A stretch of DNA of 64,000 nt from Pelagibaculum spongiae (GTDB lineage Bacteria; Pseudomonadota; Gammaproteobacteria; Enterobacterales; Pelagibaculaceae). A model generated the notes under the pieces. It did no database searches. It was given only the letters and a program-made list of their open reading frames with translations, and was not told where the DNA came from. Numbering within the stretch: position 1 is the first letter of the stretch; every line of letters begins with the position of its first letter. Both the position numbers and the translations under genes were made by a program. Shown here piece after piece: positions 1,556 to 37,236 of this stretch. The DNA lies in NCBI RefSeq assembly GCF_003097315.1, contig NZ_QDDL01000001.1:744001-808000 (forward strand), given 5' to 3'.

Positions 1556-1859
1556 ATCTACTTCAAATTTTCTACTACGAGATCAGCCAAACCAACAATA
1601 GATTGAAAATATACAAGCCATTGGTTTTGAATAATTTGCAGCTGAAGCTGTCTCTTTTCGATAACCAGCGCTAGATCATGACTTAGATCAGATTCAAATC
1701 AGCTAAGCATTTCATCATTTTGTTGATACAAACAGTCTGCTAAATTCGCAGTTTTACCTCAATTAGTATAAGCTTCGCGCCGCTTGATCACGCTCCCCTT
1801 CTTTATTGAGTTTGAGCCATCCTGATCGACTTCTTACCTATTATTTTACCGAGAGTGCT
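1556..1859. other. Spacer between fadH and rhlE, nothing recognised
   Basis: About 300 bases with no convincing reading frame or RNA. It presumably carries the rhlE promoter and leader. Upstream in-frame codons from 1806 (TTG) could extend the helicase by 18 residues, but they do not resemble the family. Confidence 0.4.
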
Positions 1860-3215
1860 ATGCCATTTGCTGAATTGGGCCTGTCAGCCCCAATCATTAC
1901 TGCGATCACCCGTGAGGGCTATCAAACACCATCTCCTATCCAGAGCAAAGCGATTCCATTGGTATTGGCTGGACATGACTTGATGGCGGCAGCACAAACC
2001 GGAACAGGTAAAACTGCAGGATTTGCCCTACCTATATTGCAACTGCTTGATAAGGGGCAACGTGCTAAGCCAAATCATATTCGTGCACTCGTACTAACGC
2101 CTACTCGCGAGTTGGCCGCTCAGGTTAGCCAGTCATTTACTGATTATGGTTCTGAGGTCAAACTCTACTCCACTGTGGTATTTGGTGGTGTGAAGATCAA
2201 CCCGCAAATGATGCGCTTACGCCGTGGTGCCGATATTTTGGTGGCAACCCCTGGTCGTTTGATGGATTTGTACCAGCAAAGAGCGATCAAATTTGATCAG
2301 CTGGAAATGCTGGTATTGGATGAAGCCGATCGCATGTTGGACATGGGTTTTATTCACGACATTAAAAAGATTCTGGCGCTGCTACCTGAAAAACGTCAGA
2401 GCCTGCTTTTTTCAGCGACTTTTTCTGATGATATTCGTCGACTGGCACGCGGCTTTCTTAATGAACCTAAAGAAATTTCGGTCACACCAAGAAACGCGGC
2501 AGCAAGTACCGTTACACAATGGTTATGCCCGGTAGATAAAAAGCAGAAAGCCAATTTGCTGGTTGAATTAATCCGTAAGAATAATTGGCAGCAAGCATTA
2601 GTATTTACCCGTACCAAGCATGGTGCCAATAAATTGGTTCGCCATTTGGAAGCTGCCAAAATCTCTGCAACGGCAATTCATGGCAATAAAAGCCAAGGCG
2701 CGCGTACTAAAGCTCTGTCTCAGTTTAAATCCGGCGAAGTAAAGTTTTTGATTGCAACTGATATTGCAGCTCGCGGCCTCGATATTGAACAGCTCCCTCA
2801 AGTGGTTAACTTCGATTTACCTAACGTAGCCGAAGACTATGTTCACCGTATCGGTAGAACAGGTCGTGCCGGTGCTGATGGCCAAGCGGTTTCATTAGTT
2901 GCTGCTGACGAATACCCGCAGCTGGTTGATATTGAGCGCTTAATTGGCAAATTGCTCCCAAGAACTTTGGTTGATGGTTTTGAGCCGGTACATGACTTGC
3001 CTATCTCCCGCTTAAAAACCAAGCCACAGTCCCCCAAGAAACCGAAGAAGCCTAAAACTGAGCATCGTGACGGCCAACATGCCGCCGGTTCAGCCAAAAA
3101 AACTTCAGCTAAACCGGGTAGCAGACCTGTTAACCAGAATCGCTCTGCCAAGCCGGCAGCTAAAAAATCTGCTCCAGCAAGAACAGCTCGGCCTAGAACT
3201 AACGTAAAAAAATAA
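1860..3215 (+). CDS. rhlE: DEAD-box RNA helicase, RhlE-like
   Basis: ATP-dependent RNA helicase acting on structured RNA (ribosome assembly, mRNA turnover). I start it at the ATG at 1860 because [16 protein letters not shown] matches RhlE N-termini; a TTG 54 bases earlier would add an unrelated 18 residues. Motifs in order: Q motif (GYQTPSPIQ), Walker A (AQTGTGKT), PTRELA, TPGRL, DEAD in [16 protein letters not shown] and [10 protein letters not shown]. After about residue 380 the protein becomes a basic tail rich in Lys, Pro, Ala and Arg. Such tails are common in RhlE proteins and are thought to bind RNA. It stands alone, with its own terminator downstream. The split between RhlE and other DEAD-box subgroups rests on the N-terminus and tail, so the symbol is likely rather than certain. 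Confidence 0.9.
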
Positions 3216-3874: not shown

Positions 3875-4798
3875 ATGATCGAACTTGACTTAACCTTGCT
3901 CAACCAAAGCTACGCCCAGCGACTCAACTGGTATCCACCCATCGCTAACCCGCAACAGCCAGCGCAAAGAATCAGCGGCATTGCCGATATTCTGGATCAA
4001 ATCGACCTGGTCTTGCTCGATTCCTACGGCGTACTTTGTCGTGGTGCGGTTGCTATTGAAGGTGCGGTTGATGCCATCGCCCAGATTCGTACCAGCAACA
4101 CTCCTTTATGCGTGGTATCAAATGACACCATGACCAATCGACGGGTTGCTGCAGAAAAGTATCAGCAACGCGGCTTTGATTTTGCCGGTGAAGAAGTCAT
4201 CACCAGTTTGGATATGACTGAAAAGTGGTTGGCAGAAATCGATCAGCCGGAGCGCTGGGGTTATATTGGCCCTCAGCCTCACCCTTCTGATGTTTTACTT
4301 AAAGGTATGGTTAATTTAACTGCCTGTGACGGTGTTATTCCTGCCGAGGTTGATCACCTGCTATTTCTGGTAAGCCTTGGCTGGACCGAGCAGATGCAGC
4401 ACAACCTAAACCAGTCAGCACAAGGCCGACAGTTCACATTAGTCGCAGGAAACCCCGATATGGGCGCACCCTACGCAACCGACCAAGGGATTAAAGTCGG
4501 TGCGACTCCGGGTTATTTTATGCATCAACTGGTTGCTGCCACTCACCAGCAAGCGATCCCATTGCTACACGGTAAGCCAGGGCAGGCTATTTTTGAAGCG
4601 GCAGCAAAGCAATTTAAAGTGACTGATCCATCACGGGTGTTAATGGTAGGTGACACTTTATATACCGATATACTGGGTGGTAATGCAATGGGCTTTAAAA
4701 CGCTGCTATTAGAATGCGGCATCTACCAAGGTTTGAACATTGAGCAATTAATTGCAGAATCTGGTATTAGCCCGAATTTTATTGCACCACAACTTTAA
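3875..4798 (+). CDS. HAD-superfamily (subclass IIA) hydrolase-like protein
   Basis: Resembles the NagD/IIA branch of haloacid dehalogenase-like phosphatases, cytosolic, substrate unknown. Motif I is LLDSYGVLCRG (nucleophile Asp about residue 49), motif II is VVSNDT, the Lys motif is LHGKPGQAIFEAA, and motif IV is MVGDTLYTDILGG. In most HAD phosphatases motif I is DxD; here the second Asp is replaced by Tyr. A bulky aromatic at that place also occurs in one uncharacterised HAD-IIA group, so this is probably a subfamily trait rather than decay. The insertion between motifs II and III is the size expected for a IIA cap. No operon partner: long repeat-bearing spacers lie on both sides. The reaction cannot be named from sequence. 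Confidence 0.75.
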   Translation: MIELDLTLLNQSYAQRLNWYPPIANPQQPAQRISGIADILDQIDLVLLDSYGVLCRGAVAIEGAVDAIAQIRTSNTPLCVVSNDTMTNRRVAAEKYQQRGFDFAGEEVITSLDMTEKWLAEIDQPERWGYIGPQPHPSDVLLKGMVNLTACDGVIPAEVDHLLFLVSLGWTEQMQHNLNQSAQGRQFTLVAGNPDMGAPYATDQGIKVGATPGYFMHQLVAATHQQAIPLLHGKPGQAIFEAAAKQFKVTDPSRVLMVGDTLYTDILGGNAMGFKTLLLECGIYQGLNIEQLIAESGISPNFIAPQL

Positions 4799-5444: not shown

Positions 5445-6980
5445 ATGATTAACTTACTTAGGTATCAAAAGCTTTCCAGGGCAAACCGTAAATCACGACT
5501 CGATAAACCACACCAGGTAAATATTAATTTAATCAATAAGATATTCGAAAAAAACCAATCTTTAGCACTGTTTGAAAAATCGCCTAACCAGAACATTGAT
5601 ATTAAACCTAAAGCACCCAAGCAGATATCAATTAATTTAATCAACTCCGGTTTAAAAGCCTTCACTAAAGACTCTTTGTTGTTTTATAATGCCATGAATA
5701 GTTCATCTAACACTCAATTTTATGACCATAAAACTATTGATTCTATCTACCAACTAGAATTAATCGAACCAATGGCCAAAAAGAATTTACAAGTTATTAG
5801 TGGGTTACTGCCTTTTTATTGCAGTGAATATCAACTTCAATTAATTGATTGGCAAAATGTGCCCAACGACCCGATGTTCCAACTGCTATTTCCTCAACCA
5901 GCAATGCTACATTGCAAGCTTTACGATCTAGCAAGCACTTTGGTCAGCAAGGTTAAAAATTCTTCTGAACTTAACCATTCTCTGCTTAAACTTCGCTCAC
6001 ACATCACACCCATCAGTCCAAAATATATCGTGGACCACACTCCATTATTTGAAGGACGAAGAGTGTATGGAATTCAACATAAATTCCGCGACAGCTTGAC
6101 GTTCTTTCCAAGTAACTTGGAAGACTGCAATAGTTACTTTGGTTTTTCTAGCCAATGGTTTAATCATCAAGAACATCGACAGCAAGCCATCGCCGAAGCA
6201 GAAACCCATCAATTAAGCTGCTATTTACTAAAACACAGCGAAGTTTCTCATTTAAAACTGTGTTGTGCAGATCTATTTAAACAACCATTTTCTATTATTT
6301 CGGCTTATTTAACGCCGCTATTAGATGATCAATTTGCACACGTCGAAACCATCACAATTGAAAACCAGCTACTCGCCAGCAATCCTAACTTGTTGCTGCA
6401 GCATCCTGAAAAAGACTCTCTACTGGAATTATTTGGAGAAATCGTAAATTACGGCAAGCAATTGCAAATTTTCACTCGCTGGCATCACCCGCAGCAGCTA
6501 GGCACTGAGCAGGTAAAACTAGCAATTGAGCAGCTATTAGCAGTTAATGTGCAATTGCCTTCTAGCTGTGAATTAAAAGCAGGCGTTAACGACAATGCAG
6601 ATTGCTGGAACCGTTTGTGGCATGACCAAAGCATGTTGGGACTTTCATTATCTACATTTGAAATTAGCGAAGACTGCGGCCCACAAAATTATTACCAATT
6701 ACCATTAAGTACTGCTTGGAAAATATACCAGCAAGCAACTGAGCAACAAGAAAGCCATTGGTTAACCCATGGGCCGATAATGGATACCCGATACGGCATG
6801 ATTGAAGTAGAAGGCATAGGACAAATTCGAGATGAGCAAATATTCATTTTAAAAATGCTGCACTCTACAAACACTCAATGGAATCAACGATTGTTCTATG
6901 CGCAATATGACGATAATGCCCACTGGCTAGATCAGCTTCAGCCAGCATTTACTAAAGATAAGTTTTTCTTTACACTATAA
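5445..6980 (+). CDS. KamA/lysine 2,3-aminomutase-like protein lacking the radical-SAM cysteines
   Basis: The 511-residue product has the layout of the KamA/EpmB family but not its catalytic residues. Residues 124-153 (FYCSEYQLQLIDWQNVPNDP then an FPQPA segment) resemble the KamA entry region. GIQHKFRDSLTF (209-220) matches the strand leading into the cluster loop. GVNDNADCWNRLW (380-392) matches the GVNDN segment. Where the family has CxxxCxxC this protein has CNSYFGFS (228-235), so two of three cluster ligands are Phe and Ser. The C-terminal Gly-rich PLP-lysine motif is also absent (MDTRYGMIEVEG, 446-457). I infer a non-catalytic or repurposed homologue. Its first 100 residues are unlike KamA. 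It is a single gene with no obvious partner; a hairpin follows it. The reading frame is intact, arguing against simple decay. Confidence 0.6.
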   Translation: MINLLRYQKLSRANRKSRLDKPHQVNINLINKIFEKNQSLALFEKSPNQNIDIKPKAPKQISINLINSGLKAFTKDSLLFYNAMNSSSNTQFYDHKTIDSIYQLELIEPMAKKNLQVISGLLPFYCSEYQLQLIDWQNVPNDPMFQLLFPQPAMLHCKLYDLASTLVSKVKNSSELNHSLLKLRSHITPISPKYIVDHTPLFEGRRVYGIQHKFRDSLTFFPSNLEDCNSYFGFSSQWFNHQEHRQQAIAEAETHQLSCYLLKHSEVSHLKLCCADLFKQPFSIISAYLTPLLDDQFAHVETITIENQLLASNPNLLLQHPEKDSLLELFGEIVNYGKQLQIFTRWHHPQQLGTEQVKLAIEQLLAVNVQLPSSCELKAGVNDNADCWNRLWHDQSMLGLSLSTFEISEDCGPQNYYQLPLSTAWKIYQQATEQQESHWLTHGPIMDTRYGMIEVEGIGQIRDEQIFILKMLHSTNTQWNQRLFYAQYDDNAHWLDQLQPAFTKDKFFFTL

Positions 6981-7004
6981 ATTGAAGATAAGATTGGATA
7001 ACCA

Positions 7005-7047
7005 AGCCACCTCAACATACAAGATTCGCTTGCATTTTGAGGTGGCT
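7005..7047. terminator. Hairpin between convergent genes
   Basis: AGCCACCTCAA (7005-7015) pairs with TTGAGGTGGCT (7037-7047). There is no long T-run on either side, so termination is possible but not proven. It sits exactly between two converging stops. Confidence 0.5.
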
Positions 7048-7068
7048 AGACTTTATCTAAACAGAAAA

Positions 7069-8796
7069 TTATCGGTTTACCATCACGCACTTTTTAATTT
7101 GAGAAAGAATGCGATATAGCACCAACCACAACACCCCAAGCAGCAACCACAATAACGGTAAAGAACCACCACCTGAAGCAACATCTTCTACTGTAATCGT
7201 CAATGAATAAGGTTCGCTATTATCAATCCCATCGAAAATAACCAATTGAACATTTAATTGACCAACAAAACCTGCCTTAGGTATCAATTTGTTATTATCC
7301 AATTGATAATTATCACCCGGTAAAATCTGCAAGCTAAAATCTGATGATTTTAAGTTATCCGGATCATCTACTTCAATTTGCTGTAAACCAACTTGTAACA
7401 CTTGATCTTTTTGTATTTTGATTGGACCAACCGACACAATTTTCGGTGGAATGTTTTTCACTACATTCCAAGCAAGTTGAATTGAATTACTCCAATCTGC
7501 ACCATCAAACACAGATAGTTCTACCTGCAACAAACCACTAAAATCCGGATCTGGGGTCAGTGTTGTACCATCAACTTGGTAATTATCACCTGTAGTAATT
7601 CGCAGTTCAAAATCATCCGGATATTGGTTGTCTGGATCAACCACTACCAGCTGACCCCATTCAATCACAATCGGCTGCGCTTGCTTGCCTTGCTGCGACT
7701 GAGCGCTAGTAATTACCGGCCGATGATTGCCATTCACCTGCAAGGCAAATTGAAACGGTTTACTGGAATCAATACCATCACTAACCACTGCCAACACTTC
7801 CAGCTCACCAACATAGAATACGTCTGGAGTAATCTGATTGCCCGACAATTGATAATTATCACCACTTAAAAGAGTTAGCGTGAAATCATCAGGGAATTTG
7901 TTGTCTGTATCTTCAACCGAAAAATCAGATAGCGCCACATCGATCGATTGATCTCGCGGAGTAAACAAAGGCGCTACCGATAAAATTGAAGGTTGGATAT
8001 TTTTGTTTACCGTTAGCAGCGCATTAAAAACATCACTTTCATCAAGCCCATCAGATACTGTTAACGGAATAGTCAAAACTCCGTAAAATCCTTCGGTTGG
8101 AATAATCGTAAAATCATCTACAGAATAGTTACTTCCCACATCAACCAACAAAGAAAAATCTGAAGGATAATTATTGTCTGAGTCAACCACTTGTAAATCG
8201 GACAATGAAATATGCAAATCGCTATTTTGTTTAATTGCAGGAAGATTGACCGCAACAATCACCGGTTGGTTATTTCCTATTAATGAATATTGTAACGATT
8301 CAATAAAAAAGAAAAGATCGCTGCTTGCCAAGGGGTCAACATCTCCTTGAATGATGACCTTGCTCAAACGATCAAACCCTTTCAAGCTAGCCACAACGCC
8401 TTTCTTTAAACTGTCATCCCAAAATGGTCCGGCAATTTGCTGCACCACTTGAACGCCATCCCGATACCCAGTTATTACCACTAAAGCATCAGGCATTTGA
8501 AACAAGTCGGTAGCTTCTATTGATTGCATAGAAAAAAAACGACTATTTCGAGGCTGAATGATTATATGAGAGGTCGCTCGATCCGGGTCAAAACCCGGTT
8601 GCAATGCAAAAGGCTCTGTAACACCTTTTAAGCTGCCGCCAGTTGGCACACTAAATATAAAATCATCAGTTGTGGCTTGTTCGCCAAGGTCTTCATGATG
8701 ATTCCAAAGTGCGTTATCAAAAGTTTCCTGCAGGCTCAATGCAGGTAGTGGCCATGCAAAAACCAGCAACCACCAGAGCGCAAATAAGCGTTTCAT
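7069..8796 (-). CDS. Secreted cadherin-like repeat protein with GlyGly-CTERM-type anchor
   Basis: Predicted surface or secreted protein. It has a signal peptide (MKRLFALWWLLVFAWPLPAL), a globular region to about residue 185, then four tandem modules of about 90 residues. Each module carries an acidic D-x-D-N-x-(Y/F)-P-x-D-F element, a G-(D/S)-N-Y turn and a DG-(I/L/A)-D element, as in calcium-binding cadherin-like or Ig-like folds. The C-terminus is SGGGSLPLLWLLLGVLWLVL followed by a basic stretch. That is the layout of the GlyGly-CTERM signal processed by rhombosortase and linked to type II secretion in other gammaproteobacteria. An AGGAT ribosome site lies six bases before the start. It follows the tail-collar gene by 12 bases and is probably cotranscribed. 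The ligand is unknown; adhesion is an inference. Confidence 0.7.
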   Translation of the reverse strand: MKRLFALWWLLVFAWPLPALSLQETFDNALWNHHEDLGEQATTDDFIFSVPTGGSLKGVTEPFALQPGFDPDRATSHIIIQPRNSRFFSMQSIEATDLFQMPDALVVITGYRDGVQVVQQIAGPFWDDSLKKGVVASLKGFDRLSKVIIQGDVDPLASSDLFFFIESLQYSLIGNNQPVIVAVNLPAIKQNSDLHISLSDLQVVDSDNNYPSDFSLLVDVGSNYSVDDFTIIPTEGFYGVLTIPLTVSDGLDESDVFNALLTVNKNIQPSILSVAPLFTPRDQSIDVALSDFSVEDTDNKFPDDFTLTLLSGDNYQLSGNQITPDVFYVGELEVLAVVSDGIDSSKPFQFALQVNGNHRPVITSAQSQQGKQAQPIVIEWGQLVVVDPDNQYPDDFELRITTGDNYQVDGTTLTPDPDFSGLLQVELSVFDGADWSNSIQLAWNVVKNIPPKIVSVGPIKIQKDQVLQVGLQQIEVDDPDNLKSSDFSLQILPGDNYQLDNNKLIPKAGFVGQLNVQLVIFDGIDNSEPYSLTITVEDVASGGGSLPLLWLLLGVLWLVLYRILSQIKKCVMVNR

Positions 8797-8808: not shown

Positions 8809-9447
8809 TTAATTACGAGATGGATAAGTGCCAACCATTGCAATGCATGCCCTTAAAACCAAATAGGGCTGCATATTTGGCATTGACCGGTTACCTCCGG
8901 TGTTTTCTACTCGGCCATTTACTGATATTGATTGCTCAGCCATGGTCGTAATTCCATCCGGGTCGGCTGGCACTTCACCATAAACCGCAGCTCGCTGACC
9001 ATCCGCCAACATAGCACTTTCTGGATGAGCCAGATCACCCTTGTTTTGACTGGCTTTAAGCTCAGCAGTTAAACCATTCGCAGCATGAGAATGGCTCGGC
9101 ATTTGAGCGGCGGTTTGTGTCACCTGCTCTGAACCGGCTCTCGCTCCCAAACGTCTATCTGTCATACCAGGACCACGACCTACATGAATCGCAACACGGC
9201 CTCTTAGATCAGGTAAAGCAAAGGTTGTTCTTCCATCGCCGCCATAAGTCGTACCATAGAGTGAAAACAGCGCAGAATTCTGGCTTATAGCCAGCAGCTG
9301 ACCATCAGCATTAGCCCAGCCTCTGGGGCAAAAGCTGTAACCCACCCACATAATTTCACCAAGAAATGGTTCAGTAGATGCAGAAGCATTATATGAACTA
9401 CCCAACAATGTGGCGGCGATAAGGATTAACCCGGTTTTGTTCTTCAT
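8809..9447 (-). CDS. Secreted phage tail collar domain protein (MdpB-like)
   Basis: A 212-residue protein with a signal peptide (MKNKTGLILIAATLLGSSYN, then ASAS) followed directly by a tail-collar domain: EPFLGEIMWVGYSFCPRGWA, a GQLLAI-NSALFSLYGTTYGG segment and FALPDLRGRVAIHVGRGPG. The C-terminal part (NTGGNRSMPNMQPYLVLR) is the usual end of microcystin-dependent-protein-like proteins. In phages this domain sits in tail fibres. The stand-alone bacterial versions have no established function. Here the added signal peptide points to export. It is the first gene of a probable two-gene operon with the GlyGly-CTERM protein 12 bases downstream, suggesting an exported complex. No phage genes are nearby. 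Confidence 0.8.
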   Translation of the reverse strand: MKNKTGLILIAATLLGSSYNASASTEPFLGEIMWVGYSFCPRGWANADGQLLAISQNSALFSLYGTTYGGDGRTTFALPDLRGRVAIHVGRGPGMTDRRLGARAGSEQVTQTAAQMPSHSHAANGLTAELKASQNKGDLAHPESAMLADGQRAAVYGEVPADPDGITTMAEQSISVNGRVENTGGNRSMPNMQPYLVLRACIAMVGTYPSRN

Positions 9448-9678: not shown

Positions 9679-10026
9679 GTGAATCTTAATCCAGTAATAT
9701 TTTTCAAAGGCTTATCTGACGAAACCCGTTTACGTTGCATGCTCTTGCTAAGTCATGAAGGAGAGTTATGTGTATGCGAACTCACTTCAGCCTTGGATGA
9801 TATTCAACCCAAAATATCTCGACATTTATCTCAGCTAAAGCAAGCCAAATTATTATTGGACCGTCGACAGGGGCAGTGGGTGTTTTATCGTTTAAACCCA
9901 GAACTCCCTGACTGGGCCAAACAGACGCTGGATAAAACTTGCAGCCAAAATCAGGCATTTATTCAGCCCAACCTGGCTGCTCTGAAAAAAATGGCCGGTC
10001 GGCCTGACGCTCCAAGATGTAATTAA
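9679..10026 (+). CDS. arsR: ArsR/SmtB-family transcriptional repressor
   Basis: Small winged-helix metalloregulator (115 residues, typical size) expected to leave its operator when it binds arsenite. The core reads FFKGLSDETRLRCMLLL, then GELCVCEL, the recognition helix region PKISRHLSQLKQAKLL, and the wing DRRQGQWVFYRL. The CVC pair at the start of the DNA-binding helix corresponds to the cysteine pair of As(III)-sensing ArsR proteins. It uses a GTG start at 9679; no better in-frame ATG precedes the conserved part. Downstream genes are the ArsJ-associated GAPDH and ArsJ, supporting arsenic sensing. A promoter with an overlapping palindrome lies about 85-120 bases upstream, so self-repression is likely. 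A 287-base gap separates it from the GAPDH gene, which may have a second promoter. Confidence 0.88.
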   Translation: MNLNPVIFFKGLSDETRLRCMLLLSHEGELCVCELTSALDDIQPKISRHLSQLKQAKLLLDRRQGQWVFYRLNPELPDWAKQTLDKTCSQNQAFIQPNLAALKKMAGRPDAPRCN

Positions 10027-10313
10027 TAACAGATTAAGTACTAGTTAAGTGTCGATTTAACTTTATATATATGGATATCCGCATGTGCAGATAAATTGCT
10101 ACGTATCATGCACAATAAAAATATTCTGCTAAACCGGTTATTACGAGCATATTATTTGACGCACCACCAAGCGATTAATAACACTTTAATGCAACGTACG
10201 CGGTAACTATTGCTCAGATTAGGCCTCTCTCAGCGTACAGAATATTGGCTTGACTAATCAGCTATATTCCAACCAGATTCAGGTTTAAAAGTTTAATTTC
10301 AGGAAGTAATACG

Positions 10314-11321
10314 ATGACAATTAAAGTAGGTATCAATGGTTTTGGCCGCATGGGCCGCTTGGCACTTCGTGCCGCATTTGGAAAAATGGATTTTCAATTC
10401 ATTCAAATCAACGACCCTGCAGGAAATGCCGAAACTCTGGCACATTTGCTTAATTTTGATTCGGTACACGGCACTTGGTCCGAACAGGCCAAGGCTGAAG
10501 GCAACCAGATTATTATTAGTGATCAGGTTATTAAATGCACTCAGAGCACAAGCATCAGCGAAACCGACTGGTCTAACTGCGATCTGGTGATTGAAGCTTC
10601 TGGCGTTATGAAAACCAAAGCCAAGCTTCAGGCTTATCTTGATCAAGGCGTAAAGCGGGTTGTAGTAACCGCACCGGTAAAAGAAGACGGTGTTTTAAAT
10701 GTGGTAATGGGCGTTAACCACCAGGATTACGACCGGGAAAAACACCCGATTATCACTGCGGCATCATGCACCACTAATTGCCTGGCACCAGTGATTAAAG
10801 TGATCCATGAAAAGCTGGGCATTCGCCATGGTTCGATGACCACCATTCACGACATCACTAACACCCAGACTATTCTCGATGCGCCACACAAAGACCTGCG
10901 TCGCGCACGTGCCTGCGGTATTAGTATGATCCCAACCACCACCGGTTCAGCAACGGCAATCACCCATATTTTCCCTGAACTGAAAGGCCGCTTGAATGGC
11001 CATGCAGTGCGCATTCCTCTGGCTAATGCTTCGCTCACCGATTGTGTTTTCGAACTGGAACGAGCAACAACCGAAGCAGAAGTAAATCAGCTTTTATCTG
11101 ATGCAGCTGACGGCGAATTAAAAGATATTCTGGGTTATGAAGAGCGCCCTCTGGTATCGGTTGATTATAAAACCGACCCTCGCTCAAGCATTATCGACGC
11201 TCCATCAACCATGGTAGTAAATGGCACCCATCTAAAGCTTTATGTCTGGTACGACAACGAATGGGGCTATGCAAACCGAACAGTTGAACTGGCTGAAATG
11301 GTTGCCAAACAGGGGCTGTAA
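10314..11321 (+). CDS. ArsJ-associated glyceraldehyde-3-phosphate dehydrogenase
   Basis: Class I GAPDH of 335 residues. It has the NAD-binding start [16 protein letters not shown], the active-site SCTTNCLAP with catalytic Cys, [17 protein letters not shown], and the C-terminal [11 protein letters not shown]. Beside arsJ such enzymes use arsenate in place of phosphate, converting glyceraldehyde 3-phosphate to the unstable 1-arseno-3-phosphoglycerate, which ArsJ then exports. That is established biochemistry for the gene pair; its application here rests on synteny. The start is well supported by AGGAAG seven bases upstream. ArsJ begins 47 bases after the stop, consistent with one transcript. 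A glycolytic role cannot be excluded, but the position between arsR and arsJ argues for the arsenate-specific paralogue. Confidence 0.9.
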
Positions 11322-20062: not shown

Positions 20063-23000
20063 TTATGAATTAACACGATATTCTTCCGCCAGCTGGCTAT
20101 ATCCTAGTCCGTTTTCTTTACGCACTTCAATTTGCAATGGAATACGTTCTTTTAATGCTTCGACGTGGGAAATTACTCCAATCATTTTGCCGCTGGCATT
20201 GAGGTTATCTAGTGCATTGAGCGCAATTTCCAGCGTTTCGGCATCAAGGGTGCCAAAGCCTTCATCAAGGAATAATGAATCAATGCGGGTTTTATGGCTG
20301 ACTAAATCTGACAACGCCAGTGCCAGTGCCAAGCTGACTAAAAAGCTTTCTCCGCCAGAAAGGGTTTTGATATCTCTGGCTACATCGCCCAGCCATGTAT
20401 CTTGCACTTCAAGACTCAATGCTTCGTTTGGCTTACGCTGCAGTTGATATCTAGCATGCAACTTATCCAGCTGTTGATTAGCCAACCAAATCAGATGATC
20501 TAAAGCAAAACCTTGAGCAAACTTCCTGAATTTATCTCCCTTGGCCGAGCCAATCAAATCATTCAACTGGCTCCAATTTTTTAATTGTTTTTTCTGTACA
20601 TCAATACTTTCAAATAAATCTTTTTGTTTTTCTCTATTTTCACTATCGTAATCCAAAGCGTATTTAATTTCGCTAGATTGATCTTGAATTTGATGAAATT
20701 GTTCCTGGATATCTAATAATTTTTGCAATACACCGGTCAAATTTAAATCCGACAATTGAAGCTTCAGCACATCTCGATAAGCTTTCTGTGCTTGCTCTAT
20801 ACCTATATTAGCCTTTTCAATAGTTAATTCTAGAGAAACCTTCAATTGCTGAAACTGTTGTCGATCAACATCACTTAACAGTGCTTGTTGAAACTGATCG
20901 ACATCAGACAGCTGGCTTTGGTTAAGCTGGTATTGTAAATTCGTAGCAGCTACATTCAATCGCTCACTTGCTGTATCAACGCTTTGCTGTAATTGCGAAC
21001 ATTCCCCATTAACCATGCCTAGTTTTTTCTGATGCGCCTGCAGTTTTAAACTCATTTGTTGCAAATCAAACAACAAATGGGACCCTGCCTCTTCTAACTG
21101 TAATTTTTCCTGTTTTGGATTCTTATCTCCAAACAAGCTAAATCTATTTTTCTTAAGCTGCTGCAGCTGACTTTGCGATTTTTTGAGCTGCTGTAACTGC
21201 TGATTAAATATTTTATCTTTTTCAGACAACGATACTTGCAACAGTTGCTTACGCTGGAAAAATTTGTCGTACTTGTCTTGCAAAGTACTTTTCTGCTTCT
21301 GGTACTCCACAAACTGGTGAGCACATACTTCTTGTTTAGCTAACCATTCACTCTGATTTGAAAGCTCAGGTAAAGATAATTGATAAACTCTCAAATTTTC
21401 ACTGAGGTCACTTTCAAGCTGTGTCAGTTGATTTGATTGGTGATCATTTTGCTGTTGTAAATCATCAATCTGCTGCTGGAAATACTCATACTGCTGATCC
21501 GCTTGCAACTTAGTCTGTTGTACCTGATCAAAATTAGAAGCGGCCTGATCAGATCGCTGCCGGTTATTAGCCATTTCTTGTGTTAATTGGTCTAACTGTT
21601 CCAATAAACCGGTGAGCTCTATCTCTTTTTGTTTATCTTGCTCAATCCATTCATTAAATTCATCGATCTGATGCAACTGAATATTCAGTTTTAATGTGCT
21701 AATCCCGTCATCCCAGCGCTGCTTAAAACCAGAAATTAAAAGCGATATATCTTGCTGCTGCTGACTTGATTGCTGAATTTTGAATCGCAAAGCTTCACAA
21801 TTTAACTTCAAAGAAGTCTCTTGTTCTTTCAGCTGTTTGAGTAATGCTTCTATATCGAGAAGCTCCTGCCGATGACTAGCAACATTAATTTTCTGGTATT
21901 GATCAATTTTTGGATGCTCATGAGCACCACACAAAGGGCATTCATCACCTGGCAATAATTTTTTTCGGTAACTGCTAAGGTCCGTTATGAAACGCTGCTG
22001 ATCAAGAGCAACTTTCAATTTTTTGGCCTTGTCACTCTGCTTTATATATTGTTTTTCACAAGCCTCTAACTGCCTATCTTTTTCAACCAATATACTTTTA
22101 TATTTAACTTCATTTTCTCTAATGTTTTCTTTTTCATTAGTGGCCTTCAGGAATTGCGGCCAGATAGCTCTCAAAGCTTCAACTAAGCTATATTTTTTCT
22201 TCCAAGAATCATATTGAGCACGTAAATCTGATTCCGTCTGATTTTGCAATAATGAACTTCGTTTATCTTCCAACAATTGAGATAGCAATTCTGATTCTGT
22301 TTTAATATCTTGTGTTTCTTGTAACTCACCCGACAATTTATCAAGTAATATTTTCTGTTCATCCAATAGTTGCGTTACGTTTTTTTTCTTATCATTAATT
22401 TCTCTGGTCGATTGCACTAAATTATTTCTTTGAACAAAAATCTGTTTCCATATAGGTAATTTTTCTTCAAAACCTTGCCAAGCGTGATTCGTTAGCCATT
22501 GATGTATTTTTTCAAGCTCAAGTTTATATTTATCCAACCGAATAGAAAGAAGCTTTTCTTGCTTTTGCTCTTCTTTTAATGTCTGTTGCAATGGCTTAAT
22601 CTGTTGGGCTTGCTCCTTCCATTGCTGATCAACTTGTTCAATACTGGAATCCAACGGAAGTATTTTATTAAAAATTAAATCGTCAGTTTCTTTCTGTAAT
22701 TTTTGATGCTCGCCATATGCAGAAGATAGATCGGCCTGACTTTCTTGCAACAATAATTCTTCGTTATCAAGTAACTTCACTTGCTTGATTTTTTCATCAA
22801 CACATTTTAATTTTTCTTTCTTTTTCTGCAAGCATTTCTGCCGTTGCTCAAAAAACGGTTGAATTTTTTGAGCAGGAATGTCTAAAATCAAGGCATCAAG
22901 CTCAGCATGGCAATCTAGCTTTTCTTGCTGGGCTTTCGCTAGCGCATTCTGAGCTGATTCTAACCCGCGCTTTTTTTCCAAACATTTCTCAACCCACTCC

Positions 23001-23752
23001 TTCTGACGCTTAAAACTTGCCTTTTGTTGCTGTAAGGAATTTGATTGCTTTTGCAATGTCTCTTTTTGAATTTTTAACTGATCAACCTTCTCAGAATCAA
23101 GTAACTGAACACCTTCTGCCCTTGCATGCAGTAGATTTAACTGCACAGTCTGATTGCGCGTTTCTTCAAAAACCTGCCGGGAAATTTCACCGTAAATTTC
23201 AGTACCGGTTAATTCCTCTAACAATTCAGCCCTCTGATTTGCAGACGCTTCAAGAAATGCTGAAAAACCACCTTGAGCCAATAACATAGACTTAGTAAAA
23301 CGCGAAAAATTAAGTCCACTAATTTGACTGATCAACTTTAATTTTTCTTGCGAATTATCTGCCAATGTCTTATTTACAAACTCTTGTTCAGTTGCAGTTA
23401 CTTTAACCAACGCAACTTTTGCTGGCTGCAACTTACCACCGCCAATCCCCATTGCTCTAGATTGCGACCAAAAAGAACGATAAAGCTCACCTTTAACTTC
23501 AAATTCGACTTCAGCCAACGATTCAAACGTATGGCGTGTCATCAGTTCATTTTCAGTTTCGGAAACTTTTAACCTCGGTGTTTCATGGTATAGCGCTAAG
23601 CAAATTGCATCTAATAAAGTACTTTTCCCTGCACCGGTGACCCCAGTAATAGCAAACAATCCGTTGTTAACAAATTCCGGGGTAGAGAAATCAATTTTCC
23701 ACTCTCCTTTTAAAGAGTTTATATTTTTCAATCTCAAGGAAATTATTTTCAT
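20063..23752 (-). CDS. sbcC: SbcC/Rad50-type ATPase, operon copy 1
   Basis: SMC-like ATPase that partners SbcD in a nuclease opening DNA hairpins and processing ends. 1229 residues: Walker A GVTGAGKSTLLDAICLALYH near the N-terminus, long coiled coils, a zinc hook CPLCG about residue 600, and a C-terminal ATPase half with LSGGESFLVSLALALALS (signature) and SLFLDEGFGTLD (Walker B). Its ATG overlaps the sbcD stop by four bases (ATGA), showing translational coupling. The ends resemble copy 2 (33532-37236) closely, but the coils diverge: copy 1 is Lys/Glu-rich with ordinary Gln content. The frame is intact. Two intact sbcDC operons in 19 kb are unusual; this copy is the more divergent and may have a different origin. 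Confidence 0.93.
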   Translation of the reverse strand: MKIISLRLKNINSLKGEWKIDFSTPEFVNNGLFAITGVTGAGKSTLLDAICLALYHETPRLKVSETENELMTRHTFESLAEVEFEVKGELYRSFWSQSRAMGIGGGKLQPAKVALVKVTATEQEFVNKTLADNSQEKLKLISQISGLNFSRFTKSMLLAQGGFSAFLEASANQRAELLEELTGTEIYGEISRQVFEETRNQTVQLNLLHARAEGVQLLDSEKVDQLKIQKETLQKQSNSLQQQKASFKRQKEWVEKCLEKKRGLESAQNALAKAQQEKLDCHAELDALILDIPAQKIQPFFEQRQKCLQKKKEKLKCVDEKIKQVKLLDNEELLLQESQADLSSAYGEHQKLQKETDDLIFNKILPLDSSIEQVDQQWKEQAQQIKPLQQTLKEEQKQEKLLSIRLDKYKLELEKIHQWLTNHAWQGFEEKLPIWKQIFVQRNNLVQSTREINDKKKNVTQLLDEQKILLDKLSGELQETQDIKTESELLSQLLEDKRSSLLQNQTESDLRAQYDSWKKKYSLVEALRAIWPQFLKATNEKENIRENEVKYKSILVEKDRQLEACEKQYIKQSDKAKKLKVALDQQRFITDLSSYRKKLLPGDECPLCGAHEHPKIDQYQKINVASHRQELLDIEALLKQLKEQETSLKLNCEALRFKIQQSSQQQQDISLLISGFKQRWDDGISTLKLNIQLHQIDEFNEWIEQDKQKEIELTGLLEQLDQLTQEMANNRQRSDQAASNFDQVQQTKLQADQQYEYFQQQIDDLQQQNDHQSNQLTQLESDLSENLRVYQLSLPELSNQSEWLAKQEVCAHQFVEYQKQKSTLQDKYDKFFQRKQLLQVSLSEKDKIFNQQLQQLKKSQSQLQQLKKNRFSLFGDKNPKQEKLQLEEAGSHLLFDLQQMSLKLQAHQKKLGMVNGECSQLQQSVDTASERLNVAATNLQYQLNQSQLSDVDQFQQALLSDVDRQQFQQLKVSLELTIEKANIGIEQAQKAYRDVLKLQLSDLNLTGVLQKLLDIQEQFHQIQDQSSEIKYALDYDSENREKQKDLFESIDVQKKQLKNWSQLNDLIGSAKGDKFRKFAQGFALDHLIWLANQQLDKLHARYQLQRKPNEALSLEVQDTWLGDVARDIKTLSGGESFLVSLALALALSDLVSHKTRIDSLFLDEGFGTLDAETLEIALNALDNLNASGKMIGVISHVEALKERIPLQIEVRKENGLGYSQLAEEYRVNS

Positions 23753-25062
23753 AGCGATTCACCCGACTTATAATTATTACTTGTCTTGGATAAATCATTA
23801 TTATCATCGGAATCAATCTTCTCAATAACTTGATTAAGCAATGAGTTTAACTTTTTTTTATTATCTTCATCAACATCTTCAAGCCGTAAACAGGCTGCAA
23901 AAACATCTTTAACATTTAATTGGGGCAATCCTTCATTCTTATTCAATGCATGACCAACCGCTTCTTTATGCCGTTTTACTTGCAAAACATCTAACCTCAG
24001 ATCCTCACTAACCTGCTGTATTACTTTTTGAACATTATCCAAATAATCACTAGCACCGACAGTAATTTCTAACCAAGGCGTTAATGGGTCTGCTGTTGAC
24101 TGGTCTGCTATTGCACTGAGCACATTTTCTAATTCGTTAATTCGGCAATCAATCGATTGCAACCGTCTGAAACACGGAATTTCGAGTGATTTGACCCCAA
24201 ACAATTCACCATTTGAAAAATCGATCAAACATACTTGTTTCGCCAAAGATGATTCGTCAAAACTTAATGGAATGGGCGAGCCGCTATAGCGAATATGCTC
24301 ATGGCCTTCAACCTTTTGAGCAATATGCAAGTGACCCAATGCTATATAATCGGCCTTGGGGAAGCACTCTGTAGGAAAAATATCTAAAGCACCGATGTAA
24401 ATCTCACGCACTGATTCAGATAACTGGCCGCCGGCACAAGCCAGGTAACCCGTCGCAATCACTGGGATTGGAGGTAAATCAGGTTGCTGCTGTGCTTGGG
24501 CAAGCGAGAAAAGATCTGCATAATGTTCGCTTATGGCGCTAAGCAATTGTTGTTTTTTTTCTTGGGCGGACTCACCAGCCCTACTTTTTGCAATATCGCT
24601 TTGGTGCAAAAAAGGAACAGCACATAATAGCCCTGCCACCTCGCCGCTACGATTTTTCAACTCAACCAACTGCTGCGACATATCCTGATCAACTGTTGCG
24701 ACTACTGTGGCATTCAAACAAGCCAGCAGCTCTCGTGATTCATTCAAGGTGGTAACTGAATCATGGTTCCCGCCCAGAACAACCACCTGACAGCCAATTT
24801 TTCGCAACCGGACAATCAGCTGGTTATAGTGAGTTCTGGCATAACTAGGCGGAGTACCTGTGTCAAAAATATCTCCAGTAATCAGTAGAACATCAACCTG
24901 TTGCTGCTCAATTTTCTGCAACAACCAGCCAATGAATAGCTGGTGCTCTTCCTCTCGGCTCTTGCCGAAGAAATGTTGGCCTAAATGCCAGTCAGAGGTA
25001 TGTAGAATTCGAAGTTGAGAAGTTTGATATTTTCTTTCTGAAGCGGTACCTGTCATTAACAT
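23749..25062 (-). CDS. sbcD: SbcD/Mre11-type exonuclease subunit, operon copy 1
   Basis: Mn-dependent calcineurin-like nuclease subunit. Phosphoesterase motifs in order: LRILHTSDWHLGQHFFGKS, LLITGDIFDTGTPPSYAR, VVLGGNHDSVTTLNESRELL (GNHD), then FPKADYIALGHLHIAQK (GHLH) and YSGSPIPLSFDE. The C-terminal part holds the capping and SbcC-binding region. The start is uncertain: the frame opens at a TTG at 25086, and ATGs occur at 25062 and 25056. E. coli SbcD begins at the RILHTSDWH segment, so all options are longer than usual. It is directly followed by sbcC with a four-base overlap. Sequence is clearly homologous to copy 2 (37233-38600). Confidence 0.92.
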   Translation of the reverse strand: MLMTGTASERKYQTSQLRILHTSDWHLGQHFFGKSREEEHQLFIGWLLQKIEQQQVDVLLITGDIFDTGTPPSYARTHYNQLIVRLRKIGCQVVVLGGNHDSVTTLNESRELLACLNATVVATVDQDMSQQLVELKNRSGEVAGLLCAVPFLHQSDIAKSRAGESAQEKKQQLLSAISEHYADLFSLAQAQQQPDLPPIPVIATGYLACAGGQLSESVREIYIGALDIFPTECFPKADYIALGHLHIAQKVEGHEHIRYSGSPIPLSFDESSLAKQVCLIDFSNGELFGVKSLEIPCFRRLQSIDCRINELENVLSAIADQSTADPLTPWLEITVGASDYLDNVQKVIQQVSEDLRLDVLQVKRHKEAVGHALNKNEGLPQLNVKDVFAACLRLEDVDEDNKKKLNSLLNQVIEKIDSDDNNDLSKTSNNYKSGESL

Positions 25063-25761
25063 CCATCCAGATTTCAAGCTAAGCAATACTAAACAGCACT
25101 AAGTAATTGATAAAATCATCATGAACATTTAACGTTTTTAAATTACATAAATACAAGATAATTCATTCTGTGATGATATAGCACGCAAATTAAAATCGGG
25201 CAATTTTATACTTACTAAACAATCTCCTATTGGACATAAGGAAATTCAACGGTTCAAAATTTCGATGCCTTATCTTTAGATATTTCACTAGGAAACTGCT
25301 TTGGAGTTATTTTAATCATACCTCCTCCCTACTGGCCCCGCTCAAGATCAGGCGGTACCTTTTGCTACGCTTTGATAAAAAACTACGACTATTATGCTTT
25401 TTGTTTATTACTAAAGGCAATTTAGTTTACCAATAACATAGCGTAACCGGTCACCTGAAGACGTGCTGTTTTTGATCTGTTCTCAAGGTCAGCTTGCCAT
25501 TGTTTTTTATCAAAAATGACTTCTGTCAATAACAATTCTTGATCGAGTGAATTAATCAAATTATGGCTGGCAGATTTTATCTATTTTTTTTCTGGGAATT
25601 ACTTCAGATAGACTCGTATTTATTTCTACTGGTCTACTTGGAATAAATGCTATTTGGAGATGATGTTTATAAAGTTGTGAATGGTATAGTTTTTTGCACT
25701 AGAAAGAATAAATTGAGGCGGCCATATAAAAAAGCTGCTGCAACAGCAGCTTTTCATAAAA
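25063..25761. other. Gene-free region upstream of sbcD copy 1
   Basis: No supported gene. 25548-25660 has two pieces similar to the dispersed family: GAATTAATCAAATTATGGC followed by TGGCAGA, and TTTCTACTGGTCTACTTGG. They are in split order, suggesting a decayed or rearranged copy. A terminator for the lipoprotein gene lies at 25728-25754. Confidence 0.4.
25728..25754 (-). terminator. Terminator of the glycine-zipper lipoprotein gene
   Basis: AAAAGCTGCTG pairs with CAGCAGCTTTT around a 3-base loop, giving six T on the minus strand. It lies seven bases past the stop of the gene at 25762. Confidence 0.85.
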
Positions 25762-33531: not shown

Positions 33532-36500
33532 TCACGCAGTGACCTTATATTCCGCCGCTAGTTGGCTATATCCTAACCCATTTTCCTTACGCACTTCAAT
33601 TTGCAGTGGAATACGTTCTTTTAATGCTTCGACGTGGGAGATTACGCCGATCATTTTGCCGCTGGCGTTGAGGTTATCCAATGCGTTGAGTGCGACTTCC
33701 AAGGTTTCCGGATCGAGTGTGCCGAAACCTTCATCAAGGAATAGTGAGTCGATGCGGGTTTTATGACTGACCAGATCAGACAGCGCTAATGCTAATGCTA
33801 GGCTGACTAAAAAGCTTTCGCCGCCAGACAGGGTTTTGGTATCGCGGGCGCTATCGCCCTGCCAGGTATCGAGTACTTCTAGCGATAATGCACTGTCGGC
33901 TCTGCGTTTTAATTGGTAGCGGGCGTGTAATCGGTCCAGCTGTTGGTTGGCTAAATAAATCAGATGATCCAGCGTTAAACCTTGGGCATATTTACGGAAT
34001 TTATCGCCTTTGGCAGAGCCAATTAAATGATTTAATTGCTGCCAGATCGCCAGGGTTTTCCGCTGTTGGTCGATCTGTTCAAACAAGGCTTGCTGACTGG
34101 AGCGTTGCTCGGCATCGCGTTTTAAATCGGCTTCAAGTTGGCCTTGTTGCTGCTGCGCCGCTGCCAACTGTTGCTCCAGTTCATTTAATTGCTCAGTTAG
34201 TTGATCTAATGACAGCTCGGTTTGTGGCTCTGACGATAATTCATCTAATGCCGTTTGTGCCTGAGCTTTAACCGCGACAGATTGGTCAATGGTTTGCTGC
34301 AACTGCTGTTTTAATTGGCTCAAGCGTTGGCGGTCATCATCACTTAATAATGCCTGAGTAAAGGCCGCGACATCGGCAAAGCCGCTATCTGCCAATTGCT
34401 GCTGCCAGATTGTATTTTGCTCGGCCAATTGTTGCTGAGTTTGCTCGGCAGATTTCTGTAATTGCTGCAGCTCACCCTGCAAGCCCGATTGCTGCTGGCT
34501 AAGTGCCTGCAATGCCTGTTGGGCAGCGGTAAATTGCTGCTGTAATTGCTCGGATTTTTCTGCCAGTTGCTGTTTTTCTGTCGCCGGGTTTTTATCGGCA
34601 AATAATTGCTGGCGCTGCTGTTGCAACTCAGTGATTTCTGCCACTGTTGCGGCTAATTGCGCATTCGCAGTGGTCAGCTGCTGCTGATGTTCGGTGACTT
34701 GCTGTTCGGCGAACTGGCATTGTTGCTGTAGCTGGTCGCTATTTTTTTGCAGCTGCTGTAATTGTTCGTTCTGGTCGGCATATTGCACTGCCTGCTGTTG
34801 CAATTGATCCAGCCATTGTTGCTGCGCTTCTGCCAGTGGCAACTCAAAACCAAAGCCTGCCAAGGCACTAGATAATTGCTGCTGTAGCTGTTCCAGCTGT
34901 AATTGTTGATCGGCAAGCTTTTGCTCCAGCTCGGTTAATCGCTGCTGCAAATGGATTTTCTGTTGTTCAGCTTGCGCCTGCTGGTGTTGCGATTTTTCCT
35001 GCAGGCTAATCGCCTGGTGCAAATCAGTTTGTTGCTGTTGTAATTCGGCAGTTAAACCGTCTAACCGATTGAGCAGATTTTGTATCTGGCTGCCTTTATC
35101 GGCATCTTGCTCTAACCAGTCGGCAAATAATTGCGGTTCAAAAATGGCAATGGTTAATGCTAATAGCTGACTGGATTGTTGCCAACTGGTTTGCCAGCTT
35201 GCCAGTTGCTGTTCCAGTTCGGTTAATTGTTGTTGGTTTTGCTGTATTTCCCGCTGCTGTGCTTCGACATCGCTATTTAATTTAAAACCCTGCTCTTTTA
35301 ACTGCTCCAGCAACTGCTGACTCTCGGCCAACTGCTGCTGGTAGGCATCGGGCTTTGCCTGGGCATATTCGCTGACTTTAGGGTGTTCTAAAGCGCCACA
35401 CAGCGGGCATTCGCTACCGGGCTGCAATTGAGCGCGATGCTGGCTTAAATCGGCAATTTGTCGCTGCTGGTCAACAATCAATTTTAATTGATGGTTATTT
35501 TTATTCTGCTGTGAATATTGCTCACGACAAGCCAGCAATTGTTGATTAGTTTGCGTTAGCTGAGTTTGAATTTGTTGAATATTACCGCGTAACTGCTGCT
35601 GTTTTTTACTGGCAGTCATAAATTGCGGCTGAATATGTTTTAGCTGTTCCACCGCCGGGCGCTGTTGTTGCCATAACTGCAGCTGTTGGCGTAACTCTGC
35701 TTCGCTGTAATCTTGTAATAATTGCGCCTGTTTTTCGGCCAATTCTTTACACTGCTTCTCGCTGCTATTACGCGTTTGCTGCGACTGTTGTAATTGCTGC
35801 GACAGGCTTTGAATCGCTTTTTGTTGCTGTTTTAACTCATCCGCTTTGGTTTGCTGCTGCTGTTGTAAATCAGCCTGCTGGCCTGTCAGCTGACGGCGCT
35901 GAGTTAACTGTTGCTGCCAGAGTGGCAACTGGCTGGAAAGTTCCTGCCACGGGTGTTCTTCCAGCCATTGTTGAATAGTCGTTTGCTGTTGCTGGGCGGT
36001 TTGTTGCTGCTGTTGCAGATCACTATGTTGTTGCTGTAACTGCTGCTGTTTTTGCTGCAATTGCTGCTGACTGGTTTGCTGTTGTTGCTGAACCGACCGC
36101 TGCTGTTGAATATTCAAATCCAGCGGCAATACCTGATTATGAATTAACTGCTCGGTTTGCTGCTGGTGCTGCAAATGCTGTTGTAATTGTGTTTCTTGCT
36201 GGCTGAGCTGTTGCTGGTTACTTTCAATATTTTGTTGCTGGCTGGATAACTGCTGTTGCTTGTCTGCCAGCTGAGTTTTCTGGCTATCGGCCTGTTGCTG
36301 GTATTGCTGCAGCTGTAAATAAACCGGCTGAATTTTCTGTGCTGGTAAATCTTGCTGCAGTTTATTTAATTCATTTTGCTGCTGTTGCTGACTGGCCAAA
36401 GCCTGACTGTGTTTTTCAGTCGTTTGTTGCAATAATTGTTGTTTTTCCTGCAGCTGACTGCGCCATTGCTGCTGTTTTTGCAATGTTTTTTGCTGGCGCT

Positions 36501-37236
36501 GCTGCTGTTGAATACTTTGTGCCAGCTGTTGTTGCTGGTGTTTTAATTGTTGGGTTTGCTCAACCGATAACAGCTGCATGCCTTCGGATTTGGCTTGCAG
36601 GTGCGACAGCGCATTTTCCTGTTGTCTGGTGCCTTCAAACACCTGTTGGGAAATTTCGCTGTAAATTTCGGTACCAGTTAGCTCTTCTAACAGTTCAGCA
36701 CGCTCGTTATCGCTGGCTTGTAAAAACGCAGCAAAACCACCCTGGGCCAATAACATTGATTTGGTGAAACGTTTAAAATCCAGCCCGGTTAAATCGCTAA
36801 CCGCTTTTAATTTATCACTGATTTTATCGGTAATAATTTTATTCTGCTCATCTTCAGTTTCTGCGGTGACTTTAACCAGTTCAACTTTCGGTGGCTGTAA
36901 TTTACCCTCGCTGGCACCGCGTGCTCGCCGCTGGGACCAGAACGCCCGATAACGCTCGACCCGACCTTTATCGCCCGGTACTTCAAATTCAACTTCTGCC
37001 AAAGACTCCGCGGTATGGCGCGTCATTAGCTCATTTTCAGTGGCAGAAACTTTCATGCGTGGCGTTTCGTGATACAGCGCCAGACAGATGGCATCTAATA
37101 GCGAGCTTTTGCCGGCACCGGTAGCGCCGGTAATCGCAAACAAGCCGTTATCAATAAAATCCGGGGCGGTAAAATCAATCTTCCACTCACCTTTTAGCGA
37201 GTTAATATTTTTTAAACGCAGGGAACAAATTTTCAT
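33532..37236 (-). CDS. sbcC: SbcC/Rad50-type ATPase, operon copy 2, glutamine-rich coils
   Basis: 1234 residues with all functional parts: Walker A GATGAGKSSLLDAICLALYH (residues 37 on), zinc hook CPLCGALEHP near residue 610, signature LSGGESFLVSLALALALS, Walker B SLFLDEGFGTLD. It forms the SbcCD complex with the overlapping sbcD. The coiled coils are extraordinarily rich in Gln, with many runs of three to five (for example LQQQQQTKADELKQQQKA), encoded by CAG/CAA. Copy 1 does not show this. The ends are strongly conserved with copy 1 and almost identical to the fragment at 30165-31171. The ATG overlaps the sbcD stop by four bases (ATGA). The frame is intact; whether the Gln-rich coils are stable is unknown. 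Confidence 0.93.
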   Translation of the reverse strand: MKICSLRLKNINSLKGEWKIDFTAPDFIDNGLFAITGATGAGKSSLLDAICLALYHETPRMKVSATENELMTRHTAESLAEVEFEVPGDKGRVERYRAFWSQRRARGASEGKLQPPKVELVKVTAETEDEQNKIITDKISDKLKAVSDLTGLDFKRFTKSMLLAQGGFAAFLQASDNERAELLEELTGTEIYSEISQQVFEGTRQQENALSHLQAKSEGMQLLSVEQTQQLKHQQQQLAQSIQQQQRQQKTLQKQQQWRSQLQEKQQLLQQTTEKHSQALASQQQQQNELNKLQQDLPAQKIQPVYLQLQQYQQQADSQKTQLADKQQQLSSQQQNIESNQQQLSQQETQLQQHLQHQQQTEQLIHNQVLPLDLNIQQQRSVQQQQQTSQQQLQQKQQQLQQQHSDLQQQQQTAQQQQTTIQQWLEEHPWQELSSQLPLWQQQLTQRRQLTGQQADLQQQQQTKADELKQQQKAIQSLSQQLQQSQQTRNSSEKQCKELAEKQAQLLQDYSEAELRQQLQLWQQQRPAVEQLKHIQPQFMTASKKQQQLRGNIQQIQTQLTQTNQQLLACREQYSQQNKNNHQLKLIVDQQRQIADLSQHRAQLQPGSECPLCGALEHPKVSEYAQAKPDAYQQQLAESQQLLEQLKEQGFKLNSDVEAQQREIQQNQQQLTELEQQLASWQTSWQQSSQLLALTIAIFEPQLFADWLEQDADKGSQIQNLLNRLDGLTAELQQQQTDLHQAISLQEKSQHQQAQAEQQKIHLQQRLTELEQKLADQQLQLEQLQQQLSSALAGFGFELPLAEAQQQWLDQLQQQAVQYADQNEQLQQLQKNSDQLQQQCQFAEQQVTEHQQQLTTANAQLAATVAEITELQQQRQQLFADKNPATEKQQLAEKSEQLQQQFTAAQQALQALSQQQSGLQGELQQLQKSAEQTQQQLAEQNTIWQQQLADSGFADVAAFTQALLSDDDRQRLSQLKQQLQQTIDQSVAVKAQAQTALDELSSEPQTELSLDQLTEQLNELEQQLAAAQQQQGQLEADLKRDAEQRSSQQALFEQIDQQRKTLAIWQQLNHLIGSAKGDKFRKYAQGLTLDHLIYLANQQLDRLHARYQLKRRADSALSLEVLDTWQGDSARDTKTLSGGESFLVSLALALALSDLVSHKTRIDSLFLDEGFGTLDPETLEVALNALDNLNASGKMIGVISHVEALKERIPLQIEVRKENGLGYSQLAAEYKVTA

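Follow-up and report, generated by a model that had tools for sequence, protein, structure and literature searches.

A distant KamA-like protein of Pelagibaculum spongiae without the radical-SAM cluster motif or the PLP lysine, probably a pseudoenzyme

The P0001 gene, its lost catalytic sites and its surroundings

The window analyzed here is a 64,000-nucleotide stretch of the Pelagibaculum spongiae genome (assembly GCF_003097315.1, contig NZ_QDDL01000001.1, positions 744,001 to 808,000), and all positions are those of the window unless indicated. The gene described, P0001 (5445–6980, forward strand), begins with ATG, ends with TAA, and encodes a protein of 511 amino acids. The protein resembles the KamA group, which includes lysine 2,3-aminomutase (LAM) and EpmB, and has lost the sites for two cofactors, the S-adenosylmethionine (SAM)-binding iron-sulfur cluster and pyridoxal 5'-phosphate (PLP). 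P0001 is probably a non-catalytic protein kept under constraint, a pseudoenzyme and not a decayed copy.

To read the losses, P0001 was aligned with 151 relatives (80 + L002 + 11 + 39 + 20; some species occur in several collections). The sequence signatures named in a preliminary description of the gene (LIDWQNVPNDP, GIQHKFRD, and GVNDNADCWNRLW) are present in P0001 and align with the family. The replacement of CxxxCxxC that it reported is borne out as well. The family consensus at the cluster is CHSYCTFC, and codons 228 to 235 of P0001 (6126–6149, +) read CNSYFGFS. All three cluster cysteines are retained in 151 of 151 relatives, and P0001 alone reads C-F-S; the motif by which radical-SAM proteins are recognized is absent from it.

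Six positions are invariant in all 151 relatives and changed in P0001: 232 (C to F), 235 (C to S), 237 (R to Q), 274 (G to C), 374 (Q to S), and 442 (R to H). Position 237 (6153–6155, +) is the arginine two residues past the third cluster cysteine. Position 274 is the first glycine of GGD, which reads CAD in P0001 (codons 274–276, 6264–6272, +). The second glycine is present in 149 of the relatives; the other two, L015 and L016, have alanine, as does P0001. The position aligned with the PLP lysine, codon 452 (6798–6800, +), is K in 149 relatives, R in L015 and L016, and M in P0001. The surrounding stretch is commonly GPSMSAGPGKVEI in relatives and GPIMDTRYGMIEV in P0001, so the PLP-binding lysine expected of a lysine 2,3-aminomutase is missing, as had been described. 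We take the aligned lysine to be PLP-binding, and the arginine to be substrate-carboxylate-binding, in LAM.

Radical aminomutase chemistry by P0001 is very unlikely, because the cluster ligands, the GGD glycines, and the PLP lysine are all lost, judging from established LAM chemistry. It is extremely improbable that P0001 remains an active radical-SAM enzyme whose cluster motif has been displaced. Nine cysteines do remain in P0001 (126, 157, 228, 259, 273, 274, 375, 387, and 411), but no CxxxCxxC spacing is found among them, and three further losses accompany that of the motif: the arginine that follows it, the glycines of GGD, and the PLP lysine.

L015 and L016 retain CxxxCxxC but have arginine at the PLP-lysine position and GAD for GGD. 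They possibly represent a half-lost, PLP-free KamA-like group.

The N-terminal extension of P0001 (codons 1–78, 5445–5678, +) is mostly unmatched in the aligned relatives. It contains the pentapeptide INLIN twice, at residues 27–31 and 63–67. By eye, a 14-base sequence, ATTAATTTAATCAA, is found at 5523–5536 and 5631–5644, both times in frame inside the INLIN codons.

A strong hairpin (6994–7060), probably a terminator, lies between P0001 and the convergent next gene. It has a folding energy of −28.4 kcal/mol (z −6.35), and 0 of 200 shuffles were equally stable; a simple terminator scan missed it. A promoter scan found 6 candidates against a shuffle mean of 7.6 and was no better than shuffles.

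The neighbors upstream are a DEAD-box helicase (1806–3215) and a HAD-type hydrolase (3875–4798). Downstream on the reverse strand are a convergent gene for a protein with cadherin/Ig-like matches (7069–8796) and a gene for a tail-collar-domain protein (8809–9447). The 646 bases between the hydrolase and P0001 hold no listed open reading frame of at least 80 amino acids. An operon was rejected on account of this gap and the convergent gene downstream. A defense or phage origin was also rejected, with 0 PADLOC hits and a best PHROGs match of E 0.016 to a family of unknown function.

Two other features of the window were recorded. An ArsR-type regulator frame (Pfam) precedes a frame that, by eye, resembles glyceraldehyde-3-phosphate dehydrogenase (together 9679–11,321). 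Two look-alike pairs, each composed of a frame of about 1230 and a frame of about 450 amino acids, lie at 20,066–25,086 and 33,535–38,603 (reverse strand); within the pairs the frames abut, and their GC make-up differs.

Homology, predicted fold, and relatives

A Pfam profile search with P0001 returned no family, and phmmer with P0001 alone returned no match among PDB sequences. NCBIfam gave five sub-threshold matches, all of them to KamA-type models; the EpmB model, TIGR03821, is absent from these five. The best match, TIGR03820 (lysine 2,3-aminomutase; 6.7e-8, 31.7 bits), does not reach the cut-off of 525.4, and TIGR00238 (KamA family; 9e-5, 21.6 bits) lies below its cut-off of 199.2. This last cut-off is also missed by L021 (145.8 bits), L002 (124.9 bits), and L015 (107.4 bits), the triad-bearing relatives scanned, which fall under the cut-off of every KamA-type model matched. 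Matches to relatives in whole genomes reach E values down to 6.6e-85, as reckoned for one genome. Sequence comparison thus places the homology of P0001 to the KamA group beyond chance.

GTDB species genomes, scanned with an alignment as the query, gave at least 555 relatives in at least 589 stretches, and the best 80 were read. These 80 share 29–35% identity with P0001, mostly over residues about 91 to 509. Judged by record titles, most are from Gamma- and Betaproteobacteria and some from other phyla; many are from metagenome-assembled genomes. By sequence, the nearest kin of P0001 are a separate, uncharacterized KamA-like family that is neither EpmB nor true KamA. The earlier label of KamA/EpmB-like is therefore kept for distant membership of the KamA group and given up for the closer affiliation. 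In a quick-method tree P0001 is not joined to L002, and its branch of 10 is at an apparent ceiling that L018 reaches too, so its placement is not firm. The family is widespread, and its scanned members lie under the curated cut-offs. The neighbors of its triad-bearing genes, compared by eye at 16 of the 80 loci, include no constant partner.

The fold was modeled with AlphaFold2 from a 45-row alignment. The P0001 model has a predicted local distance difference test (pLDDT) score of 76.0 and a predicted template-modeling (pTM) score of 0.75, with residues 1–78, 85–87, and 236–248 below a pLDDT of 50. Foldseek matched it to LAM (2a5h_B) at E 3.3e-13. VIA-align against 2a5h gave a Z of 29.5 and a root-mean-square deviation of 3.9 over 333 residues, with the next entry at 12.1. 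A control model of triad-bearing L021, made with other relatives, has a pLDDT of 86.5, a pTM of 0.87, and a Z of 32.4, with the next entry at 14.5. The barrel fold of radical-SAM proteins is thus present in the predicted model, for which the alignment of relatives was the input. The model places P0001 among the distant members of the KamA/LAM fold group, in agreement with the KamA-type fold foreseen in the preliminary description. A homologous fold minus the catalytic residues is the mark of a pseudoenzyme, and P0001 has this combination.

No orthologue of P0001 was found among the matches read for the motif, including any that share C-x3-F-x2-S, a pattern that had been put forward for such a search. 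A scan of genome contigs with P0001 alone gave 21 pattern matches and 0 relatives. Viral contigs gave 3 pattern matches and 0 relatives, and phages gave no relative. Plasmids gave 20 matching records with listed identities of 23.8–30.9%, which were counted without reading the motif. With the source genome excluded, a match was present in 0 of 58 whole genomes drawn as relatives, in 11 of 393 genomes of the order draw, 41 of 368 of the class draw, 11 of 298 of the phylum draw, and 56 of 395 of the draw from one further family (f7). The draws overlap, and the motif was not read in 12 of the class-draw matches and in 36 of 57 places of family f7. For the two genomes with the top GyrB scores, which are near-ties with others, 0 of 75 and 0 of 7 genomes of their families contained a match. 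The highest identity to P0001 among the matches listed, itself aside, is 35%. Orthologues may simply be unsampled, because none of the 58 drawn relatives belongs to the window's own family and, for GyrB, identity between the source genome and 27 other genomes of the order does not exceed 71%.

Retention, decay, and a possible partner

Retention was determined on an alignment of P0001 with 44 of the 80 loci. Of the 141 near-invariant columns there (at least 95% conserved), P0001 retains 70, and nine relatives tested by leave-one-out retain 91–100%. The retention in P0001 is uneven between residue classes and favors structural residues. It is 53 of 87 for A, V, L, I, M, F, W, P, and G and 17 of 54 for the remaining residues (Fisher p 9e-4, which is not fully blind because the two classes were picked after the list of lost residues was seen). 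Six of 7 tryptophans are kept and 2 of 12 arginines. The segments retained best are residues 130–169 and residue 490 onward. These correspond to a well-kept N-terminal part of the body (codons 117–155, 5793–5909, +), where the block 130–169 keeps 12 of 14 columns, and to a well-kept C-terminal segment (codons 479–511, 6879–6977, +), where the block from 490 keeps 6 of 7. The block counts use columns conserved in at least 90% of relatives.

In a neutral null model, relatives took random mutations, stops being disallowed, to the point where half of the near-invariant columns had been lost. A bias as strong as that of P0001 arose in 1 of 400 runs, and arginine was as poorly retained in 3 of 400. 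Random decay of P0001 itself left the frame free of stops in 7 of 60 runs at 95% identity and in 0 of 60 at 90%. These counts bear on the explanation that P0001 is a decaying pseudogene whose function is gone and whose frame is open by chance. The isolation of P0001 among 151 relatives that all keep the triad favors such decay, as do a paralogue, L002, that also has a nonsense codon, the lowish GC content, and the uninformative codon usage given below. With 71 of the 141 near-invariant columns changed, P0001 nevertheless has no stop and only 2 family columns deleted, and the neutral runs seldom reproduce its frame or its bias. We consider a pseudogene rather unlikely. The isolation that was to count against the preliminary description, with relatives keeping CxxxCxxC, is real among the relatives read, and the look of a decayed copy was not seen. 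The biased retention in an open frame suggests that the folded body of P0001 is still wanted.

Five retained near-invariant columns (Asp276, His299, His348, Asn382, and Asp410) could be read as favoring a new enzyme, in which the barrel is re-used for non-radical chemistry or for ligand binding at a rebuilt site. The searches found no orthologues that would show a new conserved site, and the neighboring genes suggest no pathway, so this explanation too has a small probability in our estimate.

Several observations weigh against a constrained pseudoenzyme. The model alignment consists of triad-bearing relatives, so the model argues for compatibility with the fold and is not independent proof of it. 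Confidence along the cluster loop, in blocks of ten, is 58, 46, and 42 in P0001 and 62, 59, and 69 in the L021 control, so the low confidence there is only partly specific to P0001 and its predicted disorder is weak evidence. With no orthologue found among the matches read for a ratio of nonsynonymous to synonymous substitution (dN/dS), the support for selection is indirect and comes from the biased retention and the neutral runs. The tryptophan retention of 6 of 7 was reached in 29 of 400 neutral runs and alone is not very unusual. Synonymous codon usage does not tell the real frame (0.0595) from frame +2 (0.0594). GC content at the first and second codon positions is lowish, at 0.47 and 0.31 against window means of 0.52 and 0.378 (standard deviations 0.064 and 0.05). 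P0001 stands alone, without an operon partner. L002, its supposed partner, lies on a different contig and may be damaged. The L002 frame has a TAG (2671–2673 of the L002 locus, on contig C3) at a family tryptophan codon (NPDW), and it reads GGN for GGD, the sole case among the 151 relatives. Beyond the TAG are 56 open, conserved-looking codons. From the sequence, the TAG would be a nonsense mutation, a sequencing error, or a read-through site.

The constrained pseudoenzyme nonetheless remains the reading that we hold to be probable. P0001 shares its ancestry with the KamA-like radical-SAM/PLP enzyme family and keeps a LAM-type barrel in the predicted model. It has lost the SAM-binding 4Fe-4S cluster site (two of three cysteines, the following arginine, and both glycines of GGD) and, by a change of lysine to methionine, the residue that carries PLP. 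The protein would still be expressed and would work without catalysis. Our leading guess is that it would act as the dead subunit of a mixed oligomer, paired with L002 or with itself, and tune or stabilize its partner. The selection for a new role proposed earlier agrees with this insofar as neutral models explain the frame poorly and the protein has the features of a pseudoenzyme.

The suggested link to lysine residues or elongation factor P (EF-P) is not supported, as P0001 belongs to a different KamA-like family. Two further KamA-group members are present in the genome, where both a genuine EpmB and KamA had been sought. One, L003, is EpmB (TIGR03821, 449.3 bits, above the cut-off of 369.3); it matches P0001 at only 29.6 bits, with 21% identity over 180 columns. 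The other is L002, 29% identical to P0001; no further triad-bearing member of the family was found there. Only EpmB passes the TIGR00238 cut-off, so an ordinary KamA was not seen in the genome. By analogy with other inactive paralogues, a partnership of P0001 with L002 is a tentative suggestion, and we think it somewhat unlikely. L002 has the triad and the PLP lysine and stops just before the C-terminal segment that P0001 keeps well, for which reason a split enzyme was also considered. In such an enzyme the C-terminal part that L002 lacks would come in trans from P0001, and the radical-SAM aminomutase would be an obligate heteromer with a pseudo-subunit; this is highly improbable.

Comparison with known systems

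The KamA-like family, of about 450 amino acids, is annotated as 'lysine 2,3-aminomutase' in several plasmid records (for example, Mycetohabitans rhizoxinica NZ_CP062173.1). P0001 has the same predicted fold as one of its members, L021. Unlike the family, in which CxxxCxxC is present in 151 of 151 members read, it lacks the motif and has about 78 extra N-terminal residues. P0001 is like KamA/AblA (2a5h, TIGR03820) in predicted fold, with a weak profile match. The two differ in that their structural alignment shows 15% identity and that P0001 has neither the cluster motif nor the PLP lysine. EpmB (TIGR03821) belongs to the same KamA group of radical-SAM proteins, but the match of P0001 to the genome's own EpmB is weak.

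Three systems outside the family offer partial parallels, each cited here from excerpts of the papers. Prozyme, a paralogue without catalytic activity, activates the AdoMet decarboxylase of trypanosomes (PMC5201418). It serves as a model of how P0001 might work, as an inactive protein with an enzyme paralogue in the same cell; the enzyme differs, and for P0001 a partnership is only proposed. The thuricin CD maturases TrnC and TrnD form a tight radical-SAM complex in which only the radical activity of TrnC is strictly essential (PMC12093266). P0001 differs in lacking the cluster motif, and its pairing is only proposed. PesX is an MNIO-like protein without metal ligands; according to the 2026 preprint describing it, it is 'not uncommon' for an inactive homologue to form a heterodimer with an active enzyme (PMC13060819). 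Like P0001, PesX is a metalloenzyme homologue minus its metal ligands, from a different enzyme family.

No described radical-SAM pseudoenzyme, meaning an inactive radical-SAM or KamA-family protein, was found in the sampled open-access literature, a weak negative since subscription journals lie mostly outside it. With two cofactors lost at once and the barrel kept, a KamA-fold protein would be well suited to asking what use the scaffold has by itself. It would also raise the question of whether dead paralogues regulate radical-SAM enzymes. Pseudoenzymes as such are already known, and P0001 adds a KamA-type variant to them.
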